Assembly: GCA_963971425.1 (NCBI GenBank)
Contig: OZ020518.1
Location: 18,294,990 to 18,358,989, forward strand
Source of the DNA: Bryoerythrophyllum caledonicum
Lineage: Eukaryota > Streptophyta > Bryopsida > Pottiales > Pottiaceae
Reading direction: 5' to 3'
Length of the DNA stretch: 64,000 nt
The translations under genes were made by a program, and so were the position numbers. Positions 2,039 to 40,911 of this stretch are shown piece after piece (position 1 is the stretch's first letter; each line of letters begins with the position of its first letter). The notes under the pieces were generated by a model that saw nothing but the letters and a program-made list of their open reading frames with translations, did not search any database and was not told where the DNA came from.

Positions 2039-2460
2039 TGTGTAAAGAAAGATTGATAACCGCAACAGATCGAGAGTCCTAACCAACATCAAATAAACAA
2101 AAAACATACACTAAAACATATGTACGTAGTACACCCTCAAGGAACAAGTATGAAATCATTCATGTAGTCAAGCGTCTCGCACTCCGCAAGGGAAAAATCC
2201 ACGAGTGCAAGTAGTATAAGAGAATGCGGAGCTTTTACTAATGATAAACAATCACTCACAAGCAAAGGTAATCACTAAACACTCTCTAATTCACTCACAA
2301 AGCTTGACTTCATAAAGATGCCAAGTCAAGGACGTGTGCCCCATTATACGCACACACACAACCCTAAGTGGATGAAAATAATCCATGGATGAATACGGTG
2401 CCCCGCCGTATGTCCCAAACCCCGTAGATTAGTAACAAACTAATCTACGCTAACACGACA
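2039..2460 (-). repeat. LTR copy 1 (3' LTR of the methyltransferase gypsy relic)
   Basis: This block starts immediately after the decayed pol terminus. It is related to sequences at 18385-18715, 21083-21572 and, inverted, 33028-33485. Shared landmarks in LTR orientation are GCGTAGATTAGTTTG, a TCCACTTA-containing segment, CTTGACTTGGCATC, GAGTGCGAGACGCTTG and a terminal TTCTTTACAC. Compared with copy 3, which begins TGTCAC, the first 40 or so bases appear deleted here. The boundary positions are approximate. Confidence 0.7.
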
Positions 2461-2464
2461 CTTC

Positions 2465-3305
2465 CAACCATCCTTGCCTTCTAGCAACAATATGCCACTG
2501 GGCTACACATCCTTCATGCGAAGAATTGTGCGCCCTACCTTGACGTCCAATGTTGTGGGCGCCTCACGTTTCAGATAAATGTAATTTCCGGTGGAAAAAC
2601 GTCACAGCTAAGGTTGGTAGGCACCGCTACGAATATGAGCGTATCATAAGGTGTCACGGTGCTGAGCGATGGATAAGTTCTCCATGGTCATAGGCATCGC
2701 GTGCTTGGAGAACTCCTCTCAATCCCATAGACATTGGGCCCACACCTCGAGATCATTCAAATCCGCAACCGAAGCCAACTTTTCCCAAACGAAATTCGGT
2801 AAAATTGGCTCCCGCTTGTATAACAATCAATATGGATCGAAAGCAGCTAGTGAAGCCTATCGGTAAAATCGGTATTCCATGGCAATCCATGGTATCATTA
2901 GAACTCAACCATAGTGACCACCCTGAAGGAATCTATACTTCCGTAGGCCTCGCTTCACGTTCTGAACCACACACTTTGCCAAACCGCCTGCTTCTGGGTG
3001 ATCTCAAGAAGTCGTACGAAGGTCAATCAAAGCTTTGGCACAGAAAGCTTTGAAAGCCCCACAGAAGTCACGCCCTAGGTCGGTCAAAACTCAGCTAAGG
3101 CTCTAAAACGAGCCAACACCCGGTCGAAGAATGCCATGGCCCCCAACTTTGAAGAGTTTTGCGGAAGAGCCACGAGTTCAATCCACTTGCTGAAATGCTC
3201 TACCATCACCAAGACATACTTGGCTCCGCTTGAAATCATGACAAGTGGACCAACAAAGTTCAGAGACCACCGATATCCTAGCCCTATAATGGGCAAAGGC
3301 TGCAA
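2465..3305 (-). pseudogene. Gypsy integrase core and C-terminal tail, broken
   Basis: The upstream part carries the start of a retroviral-type integrase core: a GLGYRWSLNFVGPL block followed by YVLVMVEHFSKWIELV, which contains the region of the first catalytic Asp. Further along, in other frames, lie an LPNFVWEKLA block, an SIAQHRDT block and a terminal block resembling PTTLDVKVGRTILRMKDV. These match the post-core tail of plant gypsy integrases. At least one in-frame stop and several frame changes separate them. The protein would have inserted the cDNA copy into the genome. The terminal block ends within a few bases of the LTR. Confidence 0.75.
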
Positions 3306-3973
3306 CTACGGTGACAAGGTGTTGAAGCTGGATCGAACCCGATCATATAATTCATAACAAGAAACATACGTGGCGACCTACTGATACATGCCGGTCCACC
3401 AATATTAGTTGCCCAACATTGAATGAGTTTGTCATGCACCAAAATGTCCTAGATCATTGTGTACTTGCCGTACCAATAAAGCCCTCGGATCTAGCCTGTG
3501 TACTATGCACCTTGTCTCATCCGGCGACACCCGAAATTGAAAGTTGTTCTCCCAACGGAACCATGTTATTCAGTGCTCAACTCAATCACGCTCCATAGCA
3601 GAAAGAGCTGGGGGAAGTTTTCCATGTTGTAGCTTGTACAAAAGTGGAACGTCTTTCCGTACATCGCTAACAACTTGGGCTCTATTCAGTTCCTCATCCG
3701 TTGCCAACTCAGGCAACATCGATACGGAGCCAGACATCAACATGAGGTAGTCGCTGCATGCCACCCTATGACTGACTCCCTGTTACAGTCCCTATGCCAC
3801 GGGCACCAACGAGATCCTCTTCTGAAGGACTTGAATTGCAAAATAGACCATCATCATCCAAGTTCGTGATGCCCGCTCGATGTACAACCACAAAGTCATA
3901 CTCCTGAAGCAACAAAGCCCCACCTAGCAAGCTTGCCAGTAAGCTTGTCCGACTCCATGAGCCACTTTAAAGG

Positions 3974-4195
3974 CTAATGGTCGGTTATCAACGTAAAACG
4001 TTGCCCATACAAACAGGGCCTAAAATGGGTTGTCGCCCAAACCGCGGTCAAAGCCTCTCCCTCATAGGACAAATAGTTGGACTCCGTGTTGTTGTTGTTG
4101 CTCCTAGAAGCAAACTCCACAACGTACTCCCATCCCTCATCATCCATCTGAGTCAACACAATCCCCAATCCTAGAGCACTCCAGTCTGTGTGCAA
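3974..4195 (-). pseudogene. Gypsy RNase H domain fragment
   Basis: A 73-residue open frame contains HTDWSALGLGIVLTQ (first catalytic Asp), a YEGEALTAVWA segment (catalytic Glu) and LITDH (catalytic Asp). It is the domain that removes RNA from the RNA:DNA hybrid during reverse transcription. It lies between RT and integrase, as expected for Ty3/gypsy. The frame is interrupted on both sides, and the stretch 3306-3973, where the H2C2 zinc finger should be, is too decayed for me to assign. Confidence 0.8.
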
Positions 4196-4594
4196 CGGAA
4201 AGGGTCGTGTCGCATTTGGATGTCACAGCACAAGCGTTGAACCGAGCTTCAACTTCACATTAGCAAATGTCTACTGCCGCTCTCGTCTCTAAGTCCATGG
4301 TTGATGCTTTCCTGTGAGAATAGTCAACGGCTTAGCAATTAAGCTAAATTTTTTGACAAATCGGCGATAGTAATTTGCCAAACCAAAAAAAGCTCAAACC
4401 CGTAACACGTCGTTTGGGGCAGGAATCTTTTGCAACGCATCCACCTTGGCGTGGTGTACGCCAAGACCCTTTGAATCGATCATACGTCCCAAATATGGCA
4501 ACTGGTTGTGGAAGAACTTGCACTTGCCATAATGCTAGCGCAATCTCCACTGCCATAATCATTCAAACACCGCCTAAGGATGCCTCACATGCAC

Positions 4595-5064
4595 CTATGG
4601 GTTGCTACTAAAAATGATAACATCATCAATGTAGCATCGGGCAAACAGTAAATCGGTCAACACCCACTCCATTATCCTTTGAAACTTAGCGGGTGCGTTC
4701 TTGAGGCCAATTAGGAGGAACTTCCATCGGTAAAATTGATCTCTCTCATCCTGATCAACTCCCGGGAATGCTGTCTTCACCCAATCATCCACCATCAATG
4801 ATAACTGGTGATAACAAGACCGCAAATCTACAGTACTAAATACTCTTCGTGGCCCACCACAACAAACAACTTCTTCGGCGTAGGCATGAGATACTGATAT
4901 GACTTGGTCTTGCAATTTGACTGGCTTAAAATTTCCACACATCCGCTTCTCTGTCCAGCTGCCAATGATATCCTTTTTGATGGCATAACCGTGGCACAAG
5001 CATACTCGCCGTTAGAGAGCTCAATCAAGCTGACAGCCAACAACTCCTGACAACGAGTCTCCAC
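4595..5064 (-). pseudogene. Gypsy reverse transcriptase, frameshifted
   Basis: Two overlapping frames cover the fingers and palm. One holds VETRCQELLAVSLIELSNGE and a PTPKKLF block. The other holds VFSTVDLRSCYHQL (motif A with Asp), GLKNAPAKFQR (motif B) and YIDDVIIFS (motif C) at 4633-4622. The two catalytic aspartates of YIDD are preserved, but a frameshift near 4900 breaks the protein. The homology is typical of plant Ty3/gypsy. The segment from about 5064 to 5378, upstream of RT, shows only weak linker remnants. Confidence 0.85.
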
Positions 5065-5594
5065 CCTAACTTTCTCTAAAGGACTGAGCTTGTACGGTCG
5101 TCAAAAGATTGGGTGGTCATCCTTCAACTGGATGTGTATTAGTATGCTCTTGTAGCCCTCTAAATCATGGAGACTAAAAGCAAAACAACTACGATACGAA
5201 CGTATGAACGCTCATACCTTTCGTGCCTTAGCGAAGGTAAGATGTGGCTTCAAATCTAAAGGCCAATCATCGAACTTTGTGGTGTCCTTCTCAACTGTAG
5301 GCAACTCACCATGTACATGCACAATCGGTGATTGCTACTTGGTAGTAGAGAGAGCATTCATGCCCCCAGACTTCTCACTCATGGGATCCATAGAAAATCC
5401 CATGTCGTGATGATAAAATTGGAAAAAAATATCCTAGGCCTAAAGTCCTCGGCCAAGGTTGCAAAGACACGTTGAGCACAAAGCTTCTCAATTGTATGCC
5501 TCTTCAAATAAAAAAACAACTCCGCTACCTCGATCTCTGTGAGATTTGGCATCGTTGCCCTCGGACCATCAGAGTGTGCCCCTAACACGCGTGG

Positions 5595-6522
5595 ATGTTT
5601 ACACGAACGGCGCTGCACGGCAAAACCGAGGCCACAAACCCAATCAAGGATACTGAGGTCAAATGTTTGACCCAACAAATAATGACACTAGCTCTCAAAG
5701 AGATTTGGTGCGGCGGTGGTGCATGTCAAAAAGTCCATCGTCCGCTCCCTCTCATTGGCCAAAGACTCCTCGTAAGTTTGGAAAGTAGAATCTCAAACCA
5801 TACCCGGACCGCGTGTCCCACAAGCAAAAGACCCCTGGTAACACATGAATGTGGAAAATGCCCCCAAGTGAAACCTACGCGGTTCACCACCGACATTGTG
5901 GCTCATGATCCTTGGTAATCTCTGTGGGAATACGGTGGTCGTCCAAGATGTCATTGACTTCACGGCGCATAGGCCGTTGCACTTGAGCAAGTGTTGAGGT
6001 GAGCGTCGCCGATGATGCCATGTTGGTCCAAATTCAATGTGGCCGATGGGCATAAGAGCCCAACGTTGCGTCATGTACAAACGTAGGGGGACCAAGAAGG
6101 TGAGGAGTACATTCTCAAAAATGTATCCTGGTGGATAGTCCACCACTGGATAAGCCTAAGCAAATCCGCAAAGAGACCCGACCGTAGATCATCTAAGCCA
6201 CGTCCATTGCCCGCCTGTGAATGGCCTTGGCAAGGCCATCCGACAATCACCAAGTCCACGTGATTCAACTGGCGAAGATCATCTTCACTAATCAACGTCA
6301 CATCACGTGGCAACTTGCCAAAACACCCTTGAATTGCAGAAGGTGGTAACAACTTTGGGTACAACGCGAGGAGACGCTAAATGTGATGGTAAGCGGCATG
6401 GTTGGCTGCAAAGCTACTATCCACGTGGATGTACGAGCGTACATTGAGCCCGGCCTCCTACAAAGCGTGAGCCCCGTTTTGATATCAAAAAATAGCTCCA
6501 CGAGGGTAATATCTTTACCCAC
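5595..6522 (-). pseudogene. C5-cytosine DNA methyltransferase domain inside the gypsy element, broken
   Basis: In order: a degenerate motif I (ITLVELFFDIKTGL, about 6507), motif IV (VIVGWPCQGHSQAGNG, with the catalytic Cys codon at 6232-6230), motif VI (YIFENV, ENV at 6116-6108), a motif VIII-like block (GSYAHRPH, 6060 downward, then IWTN), and a C-terminal part with FSTFMCYQGSF, NERERTMDF and LLGQTFDLSILDWVCGLG. This order and spacing are those of a C5 methyltransferase, which transfers methyl from S-adenosylmethionine to cytosine. The nucleophile Cys and ENV are kept, while motif I has lost its glycines. Frameshifts near 6370, 6140 and 5930, and stops inside the C-terminal part, show that this copy is inactive. 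It lies between retropepsin and RT, so it was presumably part of the pol polyprotein. Confidence 0.85.
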
Positions 6523-7200
6523 TGGTCGCCACCAAGTAGCGCGAGCCCAATAACAGAGTGGATGATTCCACTAAAAGTTGTGGAGCATCAAAAGCGTCTG
6601 CAATCTCCCAACTGCGACGTGTAAGCTCCAACTGAGTCGTCCATGGAGAAAGTGCATCCTTGCAATGACGTGCAGGGATCTCCACTGGTCTATGTTCATA
6701 TGATTTGGCTACCACCGACATAAAAGCATATATCTCCTTCAAAAGTGTAGAACCACGTGGCCAATCGGATGCCAAAGCACAACAACTGAACATAGTGTCC
6801 GCCGTGGAAGCCACGGCGCTAGCAGCGAAGACAACCGGAATGAGCTCCTTTCTGCCATGACCGACAAATAACCTAGCCCTTATCCACGCCTCTTTTGTCC
6901 ACTTGTCCACCCAAAATCGAAGGATAAAGCGCCTGCTCATCCACCAAGATGTCGTAGTTGATGGCACCAGTCATAGCGCACTGGAGAGATACATAGGAGA
7001 ACAATGGACAAGATCCAACGCCAAACATCAACTGCAACGGATGTCGTATGTAGCCCATGGCCTTCTCCGTGCTCCTAGCGATGTAACAATCTTAAATGGG
7101 CAAGGCTTAAGGTCCAAAGCACCTAGATTGAAATCCTGGACTAGCTACTTGGCAATCATTATTGGTTGAGCTCCGGAATCCAACATAACACATAGGTAGG
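6523..7200 (-). pseudogene. Gypsy retropepsin and linker to the methyltransferase
   Basis: The active-site motif DSGAQP lies at 7180-7163, followed in frame by IMIAK, a TAG stop and LVQDFNLGALDL, typical of the aspartic protease of plant gypsy elements. A further frame has YDILVDEQALYP. A 150-residue open frame (6967-6515) then runs as a linker into the methyltransferase, ending a few codons before its motif I. The linker contains RKELIPVVFAASAVAS and an EIADAFDAPQ segment and resembles no catalytic domain I know. The protease would have matured Gag-Pol. Confidence 0.75.
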
Positions 7201-7859
7201 TAGCTCAAGTGGGATTGCCATCCTCACGGCCGACCACCATGCCTCTATTGTCATTTACTAAATGTACCACCTGTGGACGCATACTGCGTCGCTCCCATGC
7301 CGACTGGGCTACAACGTCTAATAAATAAGCCACTCCAAAGATCAAGGACTGATCTCCGGCAGTCTGCTCCATCGATGTACACAAGGCATTGGCCTCAAAC
7401 GTGAAAATAGCCTCCGCCGCCAACTTTGTCCGCAATGCCGGAAAATAATCCTTGGTAGGTCAAGCCGTCATTGCATGCGGCATCTCCAACATACTACCCG
7501 CCAAGTGGAATACACCGGATGGTTGAAAATTCGGTGTTAGAAGGTCCACACCGGCAAACACCGGCAAGTGCAACACTTTATACGCCAAGGTATGTCGCAT
7601 CTCCACGAGTGGATGAAATCGGGGTCGGAGTCGGAGCGGCAATAGAAGTGGCCCCATCCGCGATGTTGAAAGAAAGAGGTAATCGAAACTGACCAATGTA
7701 GTCCGACAAATCTGTGTAGCGTGGAAGGCCACTACCACCTGGCACAAAGGAAGAAGGTGTCATCGCCTCTACGGTAGTTTGAGCACAAGTGGCAACTATT
7801 GCCACCACCTCCCCTCAAGCGCCATACAAAGAGCGATATAGGGCTGAAGATGAGCCCTA

Positions 7860-9261
7860 ATTCCTCACCGGAGGCTGTGTATCAGTCACTTGCCTCAAAG
7901 AGTCCATCGCCCTCATCTACTTCTTCAGCTTTGTCATTTCGGCTTGAAGTGTCTTCACTACATCCAATCTAGCTGCCGAAGACCCTAGGCGCTTCTCCGG
8001 ATGTAGAAAAAAATAGTTTTCATCACTATCGCGTGACTTGCCATAATGAGAGCATGTCACAACCTTCTTTCCCTTGCCCCAACCTTCTCTACAGTCTTGG
8101 ACGCCTTCGTCTTGGACATGGCCTTCATGGTGCCTACTTTTTCTTTTTGGAGCAATTGAAGTCCCCCTTGGTGTGACCTGCCTCTCCGCAAGCCCAACAA
8201 TGCACAACCTTTTCAGATTCTGCCTCTGCCAAGCTTTCGGTCGTGGTGGCAAGCTTTTTGGACTTAGGAGCGTCCATCAGCACGGTGATCAAATCTGTGG
8301 CCTTGCTCCTGCCCAACGCTCTATCAAGCGCCTCCACCATAGCAAACGCCTGCGCAAAAGTGGCATTCTTGTGATACCAAAAAAGAAGATGCAAACTAAT
8401 CAACTCCACCATCTGCTTATCCATCTTCAAAATGAAGATCTTCACCAGCTGGCGCTTTGTAAGCACATCACCGACCTCCGCTGACAACCGCGCCAATTGG
8501 GTACATATAGTGCATGGGGTATCCTCCTTCCGACGGAAATCTTGGATGCGCTGCATTTGATCACGCCTAAACCCCCTATACTCCACCTCCAAGTGCACCA
8601 TGAATTGCACGAAAATATCAAAGGCTGGCGAATTGTCAACCGCCATCAATGCCACACTTGTTGCCACGACCAATCGTGACATGGCCCCTATGTAAGATTA
8701 TTTGCCCACAATGGCAACGCCCTTGCGTCAGGAGTCCTCACCGAAAAAACCTTCTTCTACCTTGGGTTCATTGGTGGAAGTCGAGAGTTGGGCAACCGCA
8801 TTCTCTTTGAGCGCACTCACCAACTCCACACGCTGGCGCCAATACTTCTCAACTGGGCGCAACTATGTATTGTGCTGCGAGGTCTACCTCCCATATGACT
8901 AAAGGACCTCTAACTCCAAATGTTGGGGCAAGAACTCAAATGCATAGTAGTTGTTAAACGACGGCGTCCGCTGGCGCTTTTCTTTCATCTAGGTCAGGAA
9001 TCGGAGCCGCCAATTTGGCAGGGAGATGCCCTTAGCTCGTTCCGAGAACCTGTCTAGCACAACATGACGGAGATCGTCCTTCATGTCCTCAATCGTGTCC
9101 ACGCTCCAAATCCAAAGCCTATGGTCGGTATCCAACGTCGAAACATGCTCCAAAGCCTCATCGGTATCCGACCCTGTTCTAAAGTCTGCGGTGGAAGCAC
9201 TCTTTAGGTGGTTTGGTAAGGGGGAGCGATAATACCCACTCTGGATACTCACCATAATCAA
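7860..9261 (-). pseudogene. Gypsy gag (capsid/nucleocapsid), broken
   Basis: Open fragments at 9261-8989 and 8682-8134 read as one Gag-like protein: a DLRHVVLDRFSERAKG block, a capsid-like helical part (FVQFMVHLEVEYRGFRRDQM, then QLARLSAEVG and QAFAMVEALDRAL), and a zinc knuckle CWACGEAGHTKGDFNC at 8199-8152. The spacing after the His is six residues rather than the usual four. A second, degenerate knuckle (CSHYGKSRDSDENY) follows near 8060, with the second Cys and the His replaced. Intervening stops and a frame change after the first knuckle mark it as dead. The protein would package the element RNA. Confidence 0.72.
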
Positions 9262-10366
9262 AAACTACCCCGCAACCTATCTACGGGTACTATCTTATAG
9301 GGTAAGGGTACGAATGTGCAACCTGCACCTACAAAACTACCAAATTTTGTGGTTCACCGGTCATGACCTCCGGCTAGCACATGTGCAACCACAACCTCCC
9401 ACATGGAAATGTCTTGCCGGCCATAAACCTGACTTCACCTCTACGGTACCCTATCACAATCTAGGACAAGTAGAAATGGAGCTAGCAAAAAACACCGGCA
9501 ATAAGCCCGCAACACGGGAGAGGTATTGCACAAGAATCTAAAAATCAAAACCGGATCATCTCCCCCAACAACATAAAAGCGGTAAATGATAATGATTAGA
9601 GCCACTGACACACACCTCCAGTGGATGGTCACAAGTCGCAAAACCTGCAACATGACAAGGAAAACATCCAAAGGTGTCCTTCTCAAAGTCTAAAAGTATG
9701 GAGATAGCAAGCAAATGCGGTCGCAATGTTTACAAACACAAGTCCCTCCAATGAAAATCACATATTAGAAGACAAACGTGCTCAACATCTATCCAATACT
9801 AGGATTGAATTAACGATTAAATGTCCTAAATATAGGCACAAATTTCACTGAAAATTGCGTTAAATTTCCCTAGTTACATACCTCCAAAGTTTAGACACTA
9901 ATCTTTTTTTAACAACCCATAGAAATCTGGTTTTAAAAAAAAATTCCACTAAAATTTTTCCTTCTCCCTAGGTAGAACCCCCTGTGGGGAGTTCAATCCA
10001 AAGTCGGAATTAAAAAAAAATAGTTTGGGAGATATTACCTCACAGTTAATAAATTCTGCCCAAATTACAGTTTCATCAATAGTGGATGAAAATTGCCCGC
10101 AGGGCCGCAGCAGATGAATTTGTAAAAATGGAAGAAAAATTGTAGATCAGGTCCAACAAATGTTCGTCTTCTTCCAATTCTTGCGCCGCTGACATCTTGT
10201 TCAGAAATTGTTTTATTCGAGCTCCATTTGTTGCGTTGGCTCCATCTTGACTCGCTTTACAACATCAATCTAAGCATTCAATTTTTTTCTAAACTCACCC
10301 AAGCTCAAATACTAGAGCCAATAGTAGAATGTGGGAGGGTCTTTGTGAAGTAAAAAACTAGTGAAT
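9262..10366. other. Leader-side flank of the gypsy relic, no gene
   Basis: The first few hundred bases could be the untranslated leader of the element, but I find no LTR match and no tRNA-complementary primer site. The rest is AT-rich with homopolymer runs and no coding signal. Confidence 0.4.
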
Positions 10367-10489
10367 CACTACACTAAATATGGCTTTTAATGTAGTGGAC
10401 ACAAAATACAAACCCACACACTAATTTTTAAGTTTACAATTAGTGTAGTGACAAAACTATACACTAAATGTCAACTACTACACTAAATG
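10367..10489. repeat. CACTACACTAAA inverted and direct repeat cluster
   Basis: CACTACACTAAAT at 10367-10379 faces its inverse ATTAGTGTAGTG at 10439-10450, and a direct copy ACTACACTAAATG follows at about 10476. The same inverted motif occurs at 18355-18388 and 62345-62375. It could be the ends of a small transposon family; no duplication of the target is visible. Confidence 0.45.
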
Positions 10490-11579: not shown

Positions 11580-12842
11580 TTAGCTCAAACAATGGAAGCA
11601 CAAACATAATTACATGGAATGCTTCATCTCTAAACACCGCTCTCCATAGCCTACAAGCCTTGGTCACACATACAAACATGCCACCGGCCGTCATAGTTAT
11701 ACAAGAAACAAAAATATCCGCCACAAAATCTACAAAATACATACAAAACATATTTCAAGACTACAAACTTATTTTTAACAAACACACATGCACTAACAAG
11801 GTGCATCCAACAACAAAGACCATACACACCGGGCCGCGGTGGCCCCCTTACACTAATACACAAGAAATACGCTTTTCCGGGCAACATCAAAAAAATTCCT
11901 ACCCCAATGCACATATCCCCCTACCTCCACATAATTCAAATTACTAATCAACCACTACAAGCATGGTTAATCTTTCACATGTATATGCCCTCCCATCCCG
12001 AAGATACTAGATTTATTATAGACATATAAAACACCATTACATATCAAATAAATCAAAACCCTAACCATACCTACTTGTTGTGTGGAGACTTCAATAGAGA
12101 CATAGCTCTAATTGGTCGACAAAACAAAAACCACATCACCCCTCCTCAAACTACAGACTATCAATGGCGCCACTTCACAGAAAACTTAAACTTTACCTAC
12201 ATAAATACTGATACAAGATACTCTAGACAAGGCGGATATAACTCTAGTGATTGGAGCCTAGTAGACGGCTTTTACATAAACACAAATAACACTACACAAT
12301 ACACCTCTACAACAAACAAAGATACTATTCTCAACTCGGATCACTCACCTATAAAACTTCACATCCCAAATAACCTACTAATAAGTCGCACCCCTATAAT
12401 CACCAACACGGATACTATCCGAATACTAAACCCCATTCCAAAAGATAACTTAGAAAAATTCAACACAAAGTTCTTTGAAAAAAACTCCATACAAATTGAC
12501 TCTCTCATAAACACCCTTGAATATAACTACCAACTCTCTCCAACACAATGGCACGAAAAGTGCCACACCCTACATACAAATATAAATAATATCTCTAATA
12601 CATTGGAACAAACTTGTAAAGCCCAACCAATACCACAAACAACAAACAGATCATCTCTACAAGGCGGTTATCTACCCCGCAAAATGTCCAAAACATGGAA
12701 ACAATACATACCCACATACCATATAATACAAAAAACTATTAGAATCGTAAAAAATAACCCACAATGGCGTGACAATCCTATATGTACCGAACTACTAACA
12801 CTGCACCATGCCCAAATCTCTGCCCCACCCCCCCAGACCTAG
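11580..12842 (+). pseudogene. LINE A EEP endonuclease and linker
   Basis: Blocks in several frames match an apurinic-like endonuclease/exonuclease/phosphatase domain: ITWNASSLNT, IVIQETK, LLCGDFNRDIALIG (12075 onward), SDWSLVDGFYI and LNSDHSPIKLHI. The last three lie in one 255-residue open frame (12075-12842). The GDFN and SDH signatures carry the catalytic Asn, Asp and His. The enzyme nicks target DNA to prime reverse transcription. Frameshifts upstream of 12075 disable this copy. The open frame continues into an arginine/lysine-rich linker (GGYLPRKMSKTWKQ) that leads to RT. Confidence 0.85.
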
Positions 12843-15330
12843 CCTATGATACGTGGATTAAAGACATTGCAGTAATCGCAAAAAATGCCAATATTCAAGG
12901 CCGGAAAATAACTAGAAAATACTCCAAAGATAATATTTAAAAAGCCATCTCAAAATACAGACAACTATACAAAACTAGCGCTACAAAAATAAATAGAAAA
13001 GTTTTTTAAAAACAAGAATCTCCACCACTAGATTGTATCCTTGACCAATATAAAAACATTCTAACTAGCCCGGAATATATTGCAAACGAAATATTCAATC
13101 AACAGACAAAAAATAATAGACCCACAGTACCAACATGCAACTACCAACCACAACATCTTATCAAATGCACATGCGTAGTACGCCAATATCCATGGCATGA
13201 CCTAGACGGATTTACCTTAGAAAACGAGGTGAACCTGAAATTCCAATACATACATACGTCAATAGAGCCATATATGACACATGTCTCCGCAACCTTGGAA
13301 ATAACAAAGCCCCAAGGCCAGACCGTATACCGAACTCAATACTCAAAAATATGCCCCCAAGATTTAATAAATTATTATTTCTATTTTTTTCTCATTGCTA
13401 TAAACAAAAACAAATACCAACCTCATGGAAAACAAGTGCAACAATTTTACTGTACAAAAATGGAGACCCTTCAATATTACCAAATCATAGACTAATAGCA
13501 TTAGCCAATACAACATATAAACTCTACACCAGTACACTTACCTCAAATAATCCTCATATGGTGAAAAGTTTAAAATCCTACATGATAGTCAAGAAGGATT
13601 TAGAACAAAGAGAAATACCTCTAGACAAATACAAACTATAAAAGTGGCACTAGAAAACGCACGATTCACAAATCAAGACATATATGTTCTATATGTTGAC
13701 TTCAAAAACGCCTTTGGCTCTATAGACCACACCCGATTATTAGCAATAATGACTGATATTGGATACCCAAAAGATGCAACTGCACTAGTTGGAAATATCT
13801 ACTCCCAATCATCTACTTACTACATCAGTGAGCACTTTGGTAAAACTAAGCCCATCCCCATTCATAGAGGCACTATACAAAGAGACACCCTCAGTCCATA
13901 CCTATTCATTATATTTTTAAAACCACTACTTAGATGGCTAGAGTGAGGCAAGAATGGATACACCTTTGGTACATCACAAATCACCATAAACTCTGCTACC
14001 TACGCCGACGACCTTGCTACTATAACTAACAAAATAAAATCATTACAAACACAAATTGATAAAATCGACAAATATTGTAAATGGACTGGTATGGACGTAG
14101 ACGTCCCAAAATGCGTGGCTACAGGATGTCCAAAGAAATCCAAAATGAATCCAACTATATTCAAAGCCCTCATGCAAGCTTCTAACATCAACTACCGTGG
14201 TCAACCAATCCCCATACTACACCAAAAGGAAGCATATGTTTACCTAGGCACAAATCTTGTTCCCTCTCTAAAATGGAAAATCCAGATTCACACTACGACC
14301 ACAAAACTCATTAAACAATGCAAGGAATTAACAACATGTCCGGCCACCATGAAACAAAAACTAAAATGATTGACACCGTAATACGCCCAAATGTAGCATA
14401 TAGTTTCTACGCTATACCATACTCTATGCCAACCATTAAAAAACTTGACAAAAAAATTATAACCATACAAAAAACCATTTGTGGTATGCCAAGATGCATG
14501 TCAAATGCAATAACCCAACTCCCACATAACCTATTTGGACTTGAAGCTTTCTCCCTAAAAAAAGCCTATCTAAGATGTATCGGGGAACAATTACAAAATG
14601 CTCTAAATGACAAAGGTAGGCTTGGGAAAATATATAATGGACTAACGCATTACATTCTTGCTCAATATGGTGGCGCCGTAAATATACCTAGAATTGAAAA
14701 AATGGATTGTATAAGATCACCTATAACTCGTACATTTTTCTTATTAAAACAAGTAGCTAAAGTTCACCTTAAGAGTACACTTCCAAATTTCCTCTTTGAA
14801 CAAACATCATAAGAAGTAGTATGGCGTCAAGAAACACGCAACCATAACACACTCAACGCCCAACTCTCCCAAAAACTTTTACAAAAACTCCTTTCAAAAA
14901 ATATTTTTGAACTAAAACAAATCACTCTACCAAACGGCACACACATCATGAATAATGAGGACTTCAAAACCTTCCACTTCACCCCATCCAAACTAATCAA
15001 GAGTGCCCTAAATGTTGCCAAACAACTTTTTTGCCACCCAACATGCCCACCTACATGCGATACCCCTTGTAACATACACCCACACTCCCATATACTCCAA
15101 GACCCATTCATCACCATCAACAACAACATCCTCCCAAGAGTTAACCTACCATCAATCCATCCTCCCAACCCATCATACCCACACCACCCCCGCCCCCTAA
15201 CATACATCACCAAAAATCCCACCACATATCCTATTAATAAAATCATACGCCACGAACACATACAACATCTAGATACCAACAAAATACAAAATACCTATAC
15301 AAAATACCTTTGCTAATGGCAACACAACAA
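12843..15330 (+). pseudogene. LINE A reverse transcriptase
   Basis: Recognisable RT blocks: an LGNNKAP-like start near 13300, ILLYKNGDPSILPNHR (motif 2a) in two frames around 13450, motif A YVDFKNAFGSIDH (13697 onward), motif B RGTIQRDTLSPYLF (Gly to Arg compared with copy B), and motif C YADD at 14001-14012. Thumb and connection segments continue to about 15330. At least five frameshifts or stops are visible by comparison with LINE B. YADD in place of the more common FADD is shared by both copies, so it is ancestral to the family here. Confidence 0.85.
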
Positions 15331-18354: not shown

Positions 18355-18388
18355 CATTACACTAAAAGCCATCTTTAGTGCAGTGTAG
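18355..18388. repeat. CATTACACTAAA hairpin
   Basis: CATTACACTAAA (18355-18366) pairs with TTTAGTG...TGTAG (18374-18388). It belongs to the motif group at 10367 and 62345. It abuts the truncated LTR copy 2. Confidence 0.45.
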
Positions 18389-18715
18389 TCAAGCATCTCA
18401 CACTCCACAAAGGGAGAATCAACGAGTGCAAGTAGTATAAGAGAATGTGGAGCCATTACTAATGATAAACAATTGCTTACAAACAAACGTAATTACTAAC
18501 ACTCTTTAACTCACTGACAAAGCTTGATTTGACGAAGATGTCAAGTCAATGACGTGTGCGGTGCTATACGCACGTACACAATCCAAAGTGGATGAAAATA
18601 ATCCACCGATGACTATGGTGCACCGCCATAGGTCCTAAACCTCGTAGATTAGTAACAAACTAATCTACGCTATCACTAAGATGTGGAGAGGCCCTCAATG
18701 CCATGTCCCGTGAGA
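18385..18715 (-). repeat. LTR copy 2, truncated
   Basis: In minus orientation it begins near TCTCACGGGACATGGC and runs through the shared GCGTAGATTAGTTTG and CTTTGTCAGTGAG segments to GGAGTGTGAGATGCTTGACTA, where it stops. The terminal third present in copies 1 and 3 is missing. No internal retroelement region is attached, so it is a solo or fragmented LTR. Confidence 0.65.
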
Positions 18716-20384: not shown

Positions 20385-21082
20385 GGTCTGCAAAGGTTAT
20401 ATTTACTGTTGGCGAGACCGTTGCAGTTGACGCTGCTCTTATACATCACAACATACGTCAATCCCTCAAAGGTTGCAACACATGAGAAAAACATACCAAA
20501 GTACACAAATAAAGTTATATGACCTAGACTAGAATGTATTCAAGCCATTAAGTCAATCACTCCTACTATAATCCTTCTAACCTCAATTTTGTAGCAATCA
20601 TCCCCTATTTTTACCACGGCACGCTCTTTCATGTAACTCAAAAAGCGACAAGTGTTTACCAGGTTTTAGATTGTGAATCGGCAATTTTTGCCTTCAATTA
20701 TATCTCTTCAACTCCATTGTTGCTAGTCTCTATGTGTTTGTTTCCAAACCCAAGTGTTAAACCCAAAGAGCATCTCTACTCGCTGTGTGAGCCTAACAAT
20801 ACAGGGCTATGAGATGGTGGAGAGATGCATAACCCATGGTCCAACTGCTCGGGGATGAGTCTCAACGCTAGCTAGAGAGAAACGCTCCACCCGGCTACCT
20901 AGCCCCGTTAGCATCATTTATGGCATAACAATGTTCCTCGCATCGTTTGCCCATGTTTCGTTGCCGTTGTTCTTTACATGGATGTCTGAATTGTTTATGG
21001 GGCAACCAATCATTGGCGAGTTTGGGCCTGCAGGCCTCACCGCCATTTGCCAAATGCCCCTTCAACGGTCATCCCGCCATGT
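20385..21082. other. Intergenic, no gene recognised
   Basis: No coding signal, terminal repeat or RNA gene visible. Confidence 0.4.
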
Positions 21083-21572
21083 TGTGTAAAAAGATATCGC
21101 TAAACACTAAAGATTGAGAGTCATAACCAACATCAAAGGAACAAAAAACATACACAAACACAAGTATACATAGTACACCCTTGAGTGTAAGTAATACACC
21201 CCCTTTGTCAAGTGAAAAGTACAAAATTACACTAATAGTCAAATGTCTTGCACTCCACAACAGGTGAATCAACGAGTGCAAGTTAGAAATGAAAATACGA
21301 CGTCTTTACTAATGATTACACCATCACTTACCAGCAAAGACAATCACCACTACTCACCAATGTCACCCACAAAGCTTGACTTGACAAAGATGTCAAGGCA
21401 AAGAAATTGCCCTGCTATAAAGACACAAAATCCTAAGCGGATGAATTCATCCGCTTGATGAATGTGGATCACCGGATGCAACTTTTCTAAACGCAAGTAA
21501 ATTTTGTAAACTAACTAATCTACCAAGGCACACTACAACTCAATGAGACCCCCGATGCCACGTTCCGTGACA
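21083..21572 (-). repeat. LTR copy 3, near full length
   Basis: In minus orientation it begins TGTCACGGAACGTGGCATCG at 21572 and ends in a TTTTTACACAAC segment near 21083, giving about 490 bp. It is the most complete LTR in the window, with TG at the start, although the CA at the end is eroded. No internal coding region flanks it on either side, consistent with a solo LTR. Confidence 0.65.
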
Positions 21573-40840: not shown

Positions 40841-40911
40841 TTAACCCGACGTGAACCAAACACGCACCTTCTGATCTGGAGTCAGACGCACTACCATTGC
40901 GCCACAGATCC
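40841..40911 (-). pseudogene. trnW-CCA: tRNA-Trp(CCA), probably decayed
   Basis: The minus strand from 40911 reads GGATCTG (acceptor), GCGC/GTGC D stem, an anticodon stem TCTGA/TCAGA with loop CTCCAGA (anticodon CCA), and a GCGTG/CACGT T stem. It matches the plant nuclear tRNA-Trp pattern, but it is 71 rather than 72 nt, with one base missing in the variable loop. The T loop reads TTTGGTT, so the invariant C56 and A58 are changed, and position 72 is A opposite G1. These changes hit the pol III B box and tertiary contacts, so I call it a pseudogene. It lies in the 575 bp between the two convergent genes. Confidence 0.78.

Follow-up and report, generated by a model that had tools for sequence, protein, structure and literature searches.

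A Dnmt3-type cytosine methyltransferase encoded beside Gag in a Ty3/gypsy retrotransposon family of the moss Bryoerythrophyllum caledonicum

Retroelements with methyltransferases and the moss locus

The carriage of DNA cytosine methyltransferases (DNMTs) by retrotransposons was reported in 2018 by de Mendoza and colleagues, who describe KnitGypsy-Dnmt3 (PMC5890265), a gypsy element of Klebsormidium nitens with a Dnmt3 domain, together with SymbioDIRS-Dnmt3 and SymbioLINE-Dnmt. Here we describe a land-plant element of this kind, found in a 64,000-nucleotide stretch of the moss Bryoerythrophyllum caledonicum (GenBank assembly GCA_963971425.1, contig OZ020518.1, forward-strand positions 18,294,990 to 18,358,989), hereafter the window. 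An earlier, sequence-only reading of the window had proposed a methyltransferase built into a Ty3/gypsy pol, and had rightly cited the 2018 work as precedent.

According to that report, KnitGypsy-Dnmt3 shares with the moss element the gypsy domains, an unrearranged Dnmt3-type domain, DIRS-like repeats and purifying selection. The two differ in host, the moss element residing in a land plant in more than 100 copies, and, as far as description allows comparison, in arrangement: the Klebsormidium domain is reported in "the Pol polyprotein ORF", whereas the moss DNMT lies with Gag and protease before a UAG. The main text on KnitGypsy-Dnmt3 contains neither "PHD" nor "readthrough", and uses "TSD" just for the long interspersed nuclear element (LINE). 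SymbioDIRS-Dnmt3 and SymbioLINE-Dnmt resemble the moss element as retroelements bearing cytosine methyltransferases, and the DIRS group of the former shows two domain orders; unlike it, they are dinoflagellate tyrosine-recombinase DIRS or LINE elements rather than gypsy (PMC5890265). A gypsy element of Phalaenopsis has likewise gained a nucleic-acid-modifying enzyme, though in these orchids it is related to demethylases of N6-methyladenosine in RNA (PMC9289625). The main text of a survey of plant long terminal repeat (LTR) elements mentions neither methyltransferase, PHD nor Marchantia (PMC6317226), and a 2019 paper states that land plants "such as tracheophytes" lack elements of this sort (PMC6338049). 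In its broad form, that statement is at odds with the moss and liverwort elements described below. In the literature searched, which mostly excluded subscription papers and bioRxiv preprints, no report of DNMT-bearing gypsy elements in mosses or liverworts was found.

The window copy and the open copies

The window contains, on its minus strand, a decayed gypsy copy of the family that we term B (2040..10369), with its 5' end eroded; its longest blastn match to the open copy L028 shows 80.3% identity across 7592 columns, and shorter pieces match as well. From its 5' side it retains what is left of the repeat A1 end and the leader (10279..10369, 73.9% match), a frameshifted remnant of open reading frame (ORF) 1 covering Gag, zinc knuckles, protease and DNMT (5338..9276, by tblastn and mapping), a TAG in the context AAG-TAG-CAATCA (5335..5337, by junction alignment and mapping), an ORF2 remnant with reverse transcriptase (RT), RNase H and integrase and without a PHD finger (2455..5334, tblastn residues 1-960 of 1047), repeat A2 (2137..2453, by blastn to L028) and repeat B2 (2040..2141, 92% match). 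Within ORF1, mapping from L028 places the zinc-knuckle region at 7991..8187, where CCHC can be read in translation, a retropepsin with its DSGAQP motif at 6847..7294, and a frameshift-broken Dnmt3-type domain at 5612..6537, in which 786 of 926 aligned bases are identical to L028. Pfam profiles for DNA_methylase (E 4.7e-10, 6071-6364) and RVT_1 (E 1e-12, 4595-4999) match on the same strand.

These results bear out the proposed similarity to methyltransferases and the position of the domain between protease (6847-7294) and the RT-bearing ORF2 (5334-2455). In translation the minus-strand frames give, in order, a zinc knuckle, DSGAQP, GWPCQGHS, ENV, an AHRP block and YIDD; motif IV, ENV and the VIII-like block are thus where the sequence-only reading saw them, though in different frames; motif I is degenerate in this copy. 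Since the domains are spread over three frames, and the segment that would contain repeat B1 and the PHD finger is absent, the window copy is dead.

In the 437-Mb assembly holding the window (894 contigs), contig C894 is a plastid sequence with rps7, ndhB and rpoC2; its rpoC2 is 95% identical to a further contig, 92% to a cluster under the name of Syntrichia filaris (Pottiaceae) and 87% to Trematodon, which places the host among mosses near Pottiaceae. The assembly was searched for further copies. A search with PF00145 gave at least 123 matches (123 of 1055 candidates scored), among them one bacterial-looking stretch and one DRM exon. A DNMT query from family A, the sister of family B, gave at least 114 near-full or full-domain matches at 87-100% identity (114 of 2148 candidates scored), 22 of which lie in frames of at least 1300 aa without internal stop. 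Among the best 44 of 7880 candidates for family A ORF2, an upstream methyltransferase profile match was found in 31, and the other 13, examined singly, all encode the DNMT, one of them frameshifted. Copies lacking the domain, which would have told against the earlier proposal, therefore number 0 among these 44, and loss of the DNMT in part of family A, the family that this check covers, is rejected. The many open-frame copies with the gypsy domain set likewise dispose of the ideas that the match arose by chance or that an element had nested in a host gene, and strongly support the view that this lineage carries a DNMT-bearing gypsy family.

Three by-products of these searches may be recorded. 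The top PF00145 match (L001/L033) was set aside as a bacterial-looking stretch inside scaffold C14; this region (L033, G000:C14:16012000-16021999) is ORF-dense, with transposase-like and DNA methylase ORFs and a masked run, within a chromosome-size scaffold, and is probably contamination incorporated into the assembly. One pair of DNMT matches, alike in score, frame length and stop, lies on opposite strands some 10 kb from each other (G000:C14:8198317, plus; G000:C14:8208085, minus), and represents either a duplication in inverted orientation or a mirror image produced in assembly. L034 (G000:C3:9276000-9285999) is a host DRM-type methyltransferase with intron-split exons and rearranged motif order.

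In the open copies, ORF1 (1353-1371 aa) encodes zinc knuckles, a DSGAQP protease and the DNMT, and ORF2 (1041-1047 aa) encodes RT, RNase H, an H2C2-rve integrase and a PHD finger. The Pfam succession within ORF2 (RVT_1, RT_RNaseH, Integrase_H2C2, rve) is the Ty3/gypsy order with a DDE integrase; the protease is recognised by its motif and by an Asp_protease_2 match below threshold (E 0.0012-0.0024). A single in-frame TAG separates the two ORFs; its context is CAA-TAG-CAACCA for family A, AAG-TAG-CAATCA for family B, and the overall order reads zinc knuckle-PR-DNMT / UAG-CARYYA / RT-RH-INT-PHD (PR, protease; RH, RNase H; INT, integrase). After removal of 5 duplicate loci, the TAG is present in 26 of 28 distinct copies, the window copy included, and the complete UAG-CARYYA in 24; L014 and L015 have an altered context, L026 is unaligned there and L027 has CAG. 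UAG-CARYYA is what we take to be a readthrough signal of the tobamovirus type. Because synonymous sites are saturated between families A and B, the context has been kept beyond what mere relatedness would give. Readthrough of the UAG is presumed. The DNMT is encoded together with Gag and protease, apart from RT; hence, of the earlier description, the order protease-DNMT-RT stands and the placement in pol needs correcting.

The CAG of L027 (G000:C3:4090300-4100299) replaces the junction TAG and creates one longer open frame. Several metagenome relatives likewise have fused ORFs.

All five elements with both ends fetched have the repeat layout A1-coding-B1-A2-B2, that is, split direct repeats of the DIRS type, and none has the plain direct LTRs of Ty3/gypsy. 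Repeat A measures about 350-370 bp and repeat B about 105-240 bp; the A arms are identical over 372 bp in L021 and over 350 bp in L023, and 98.6% and 98.1% identical in L028 and L036. The outer ends read TGTC...GACA, and all five elements are flanked by 4-bp target duplications (AGCA, TAAC, GTGC, CCTC, AGGA). At the inner B1-A2 junction stand two additional bases (GC or AC) missing from the outer ends, as would be expected if integrase trimmed and inserted a terminus-joined molecule. No tyrosine recombinase appeared among the Pfam matches of the scanned ORFs, which contain the rve integrase instead; this, with the 4-bp duplications in 5/5 elements, rules out membership in DIRS. The window also contains a solitary A-B unit on the minus strand (21080..21572, by blastn and mapping), flanked by TGGT and TGGC (3 of 4 bases alike), which is the product expected if A1 and A2 recombined with each other, and a solitary repeat A (18385..18713, minus strand, 81% match).

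Relatives and the methyltransferase domain

Two protein searches yielded 57 relatives and, with a query of the type T2 defined below, 24, of which 20 were new; with two moss rows these make 79 proteins, from which 8 with less than 240 aa of DNMT were dropped. By domain order the remaining 71 comprise 40 of type T1 (PR-DNMT, then RT where the frame continues), 28 of type T2 (RT-RH-DNMT-INT) and 3 unclear. T1 includes proteins of Marchantia polymorpha and Closterium; the Marchantia protein P0015 reads PR-DNMT-RT-RH, as does, in pieces, the Sphagnum fallax protein P0050, which fell under the length cut. No row named Klebsormidium occurs among the matches listed in either search.

T2, represented by name in Haematococcus lacustris and Chlamydomonas eustigma, has in these chlorophytes a homologous DNMT (about 35-44% identity), gypsy RT-RH-INT and a PHD finger, as in the moss elements, and differs in that the DNMT lies between RNase H and integrase. 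CrREM1 of Chlamydomonas is a further gypsy element from a green alga that contains a PHD finger, a likeness of content and not of compared sequences; it is not known to have a DNMT. The two positions find a parallel in the Tat lineage of gypsy, in which, according to Neumann et al. 2019, the place of an extra domain depends on the clade: some have it between PR and RT, others between RH and INT. That domain is an RNase H, unlike the methyltransferase of the mosses (PMC6317226).

T1 and T2 are split by one branch (support 100/99) both in the tree of RT and RNase H (24 rows, 47 of the 71 having too little of these domains, so that only 5 of 40 T1 rows enter it) and in the DNMT tree (70 rows, 1 dropped); RT and DNMT have therefore travelled together since the split. 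When DNMT3A, a moss DRM and one bacterial row, all long branches, were added as outgroups to the DNMT tree, T2 was not a single group.

Sequence and structure comparison gives the family A DNMT a Dnmt3-like catalytic fold with unrearranged motif order and the catalytic Cys, Glu and Arg; the VIA row list, a second look at the Foldseek matches, rules out no family. Family B is assigned to Dnmt3 less firmly, by sequence (DNMT3A match, E 5.1e-6). A PDB search with the T2 protein P0185 showed RT, integrase and PHD but no DNMT among the matches listed (60 of 98), and the Dnmt3 nature of T2 is accordingly drawn solely from its homology to T1. Across T1 and T2 together, the catalytic Cys, Glu and two Arg are retained in 69-71 of 71 rows, and the tested glycine of motif I is variable (G 26, C 21, S 18).

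What the methyltransferase might do

Purifying selection on the DNMT, measured as the ratio of nonsynonymous to synonymous substitution (dN/dS) among copies, suggests that the element benefits from the domain. We incline, by a modest degree, to a reading in which the copy in the window, itself dead, belongs to a large moss Ty3/gypsy family whose Dnmt3-type de novo enzyme methylates the element's own complementary DNA (cDNA). Most ribosomes would stop at the UAG and yield abundant Gag-PR-DNMT, and the methyltransferase would thus be made in Gag-like amounts, while a few would read through to provide RT and integrase. Reverse transcription through the split repeats A-coding-B-A-B might then give a terminus-joined cDNA, circular or bridged, which would be methylated ahead of integration or in its course. 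On inserting this cDNA, the DDE integrase would trim two spacer bases and create the 4-bp duplication. The methyl marks could make the new DNA look like that of the host and so let it establish itself unobtrusively, and the PHD finger may select chromatin. Methylation of the element's own cDNA before or at insertion appears the simplest account of a selected DNMT beside Gag.

Several observations weigh against this proposal. The dN/dS copies, freed of 5 duplicate loci, were picked because their frames are open, and constraint is stronger on RT than on the DNMT. KnitGypsy-Dnmt3 gave no methylation in yeast, a result that its authors call inconclusive (PMC5890265). No primer-binding site was recognised by eye, and no special CpG depletion was seen in the open copies examined: CpG observed/expected is 0.83-0.88 in three of family B, and 0.58-0.59 in three and 0.75 in a fourth of family A, while the remainder of the window gives 0.58. 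In the window copy, where decay was counted only at positions on which three open copies agree, C-to-T changes affect 150 of 708 CG, 116 of 500 CHG and 256 of 2116 CHH sites, as against 156 of 3465 for A/T transitions. This pattern, with CG similar to CHG and CHH less affected, resembles host silencing of the CMT/DRM type rather than a CG-only activity, and is therefore uninformative on the element's own enzyme.

The same C-to-T excess in all three contexts, marking an old copy that was silenced, would also suit an enzyme that tames its bearer by marking new copies for host silencing, with low transposition, a spared host and a persisting lineage. The discussion of de Mendoza et al. raises this possibility (PMC5890265), and conservation of the DNMT agrees with it; we nevertheless regard it as unlikely, as the many young open-frame copies betoken a family that moves well, and copies that evade restraint have the advantage under selection within a genome. 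Another reading has the enzyme act in trans, on RNA or on host DNA, for instance by upsetting regulation or defence, with the element's cDNA not its chief target; its production on the Gag side, which would make it abundant, is in favour of this. The match of fold and sequence to DNA-acting Dnmt3 and co-packaging with RT, which points to cDNA, render such a role rather improbable. Least credible is a domain that just binds nucleic acid or serves as a link, catalysis being irrelevant: the negative yeast result with the Klebsormidium domain (PMC5890265) and the variable motif I glycine are in its favour, but the near-invariance of the catalytic residues described above speaks the other way.

Returning to self-methylation of cDNA, a wider and more doubtful extension of it may be entertained. 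The gypsy elements bearing both DNMT and PHD finger might form one ancient green-plant clade spanning chlorophytes, zygnematophytes, liverworts and mosses, in which the DNMT either changed its place in the polyprotein or was acquired on two occasions. The leaky stop of the moss elements would then give DNMT-rich particles, and premethylated DNA would reach the DDE integrase through a terminus-joined intermediate of the split repeats, so that the element would set its own epigenetic state before entering the genome.

An element kind first described in an alga is well kept here in a land plant, and self-encoded methyltransferases are now placed in mosses and liverworts, including the genetic model Marchantia. 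Why a transposon should carry an enzyme of a usually silencing type, a long-open question, thereby becomes accessible to experiment in tractable plants. From the place of the DNMT on the Gag side follows a concrete prediction on enzyme dose and timing, and the combination of DIRS-like repeats, DDE integrase and 4-bp duplications offers a case for working out how split-repeat elements replicate.

Elsewhere in the window, LINE-like non-LTR pieces with endonuclease-like and RT-like ORFs were recognised by eye at 12075-13946 on the plus strand, and a tRNA match (Rfam RF00005, 42.7 bits) lies at 40841-40911 on the minus strand.
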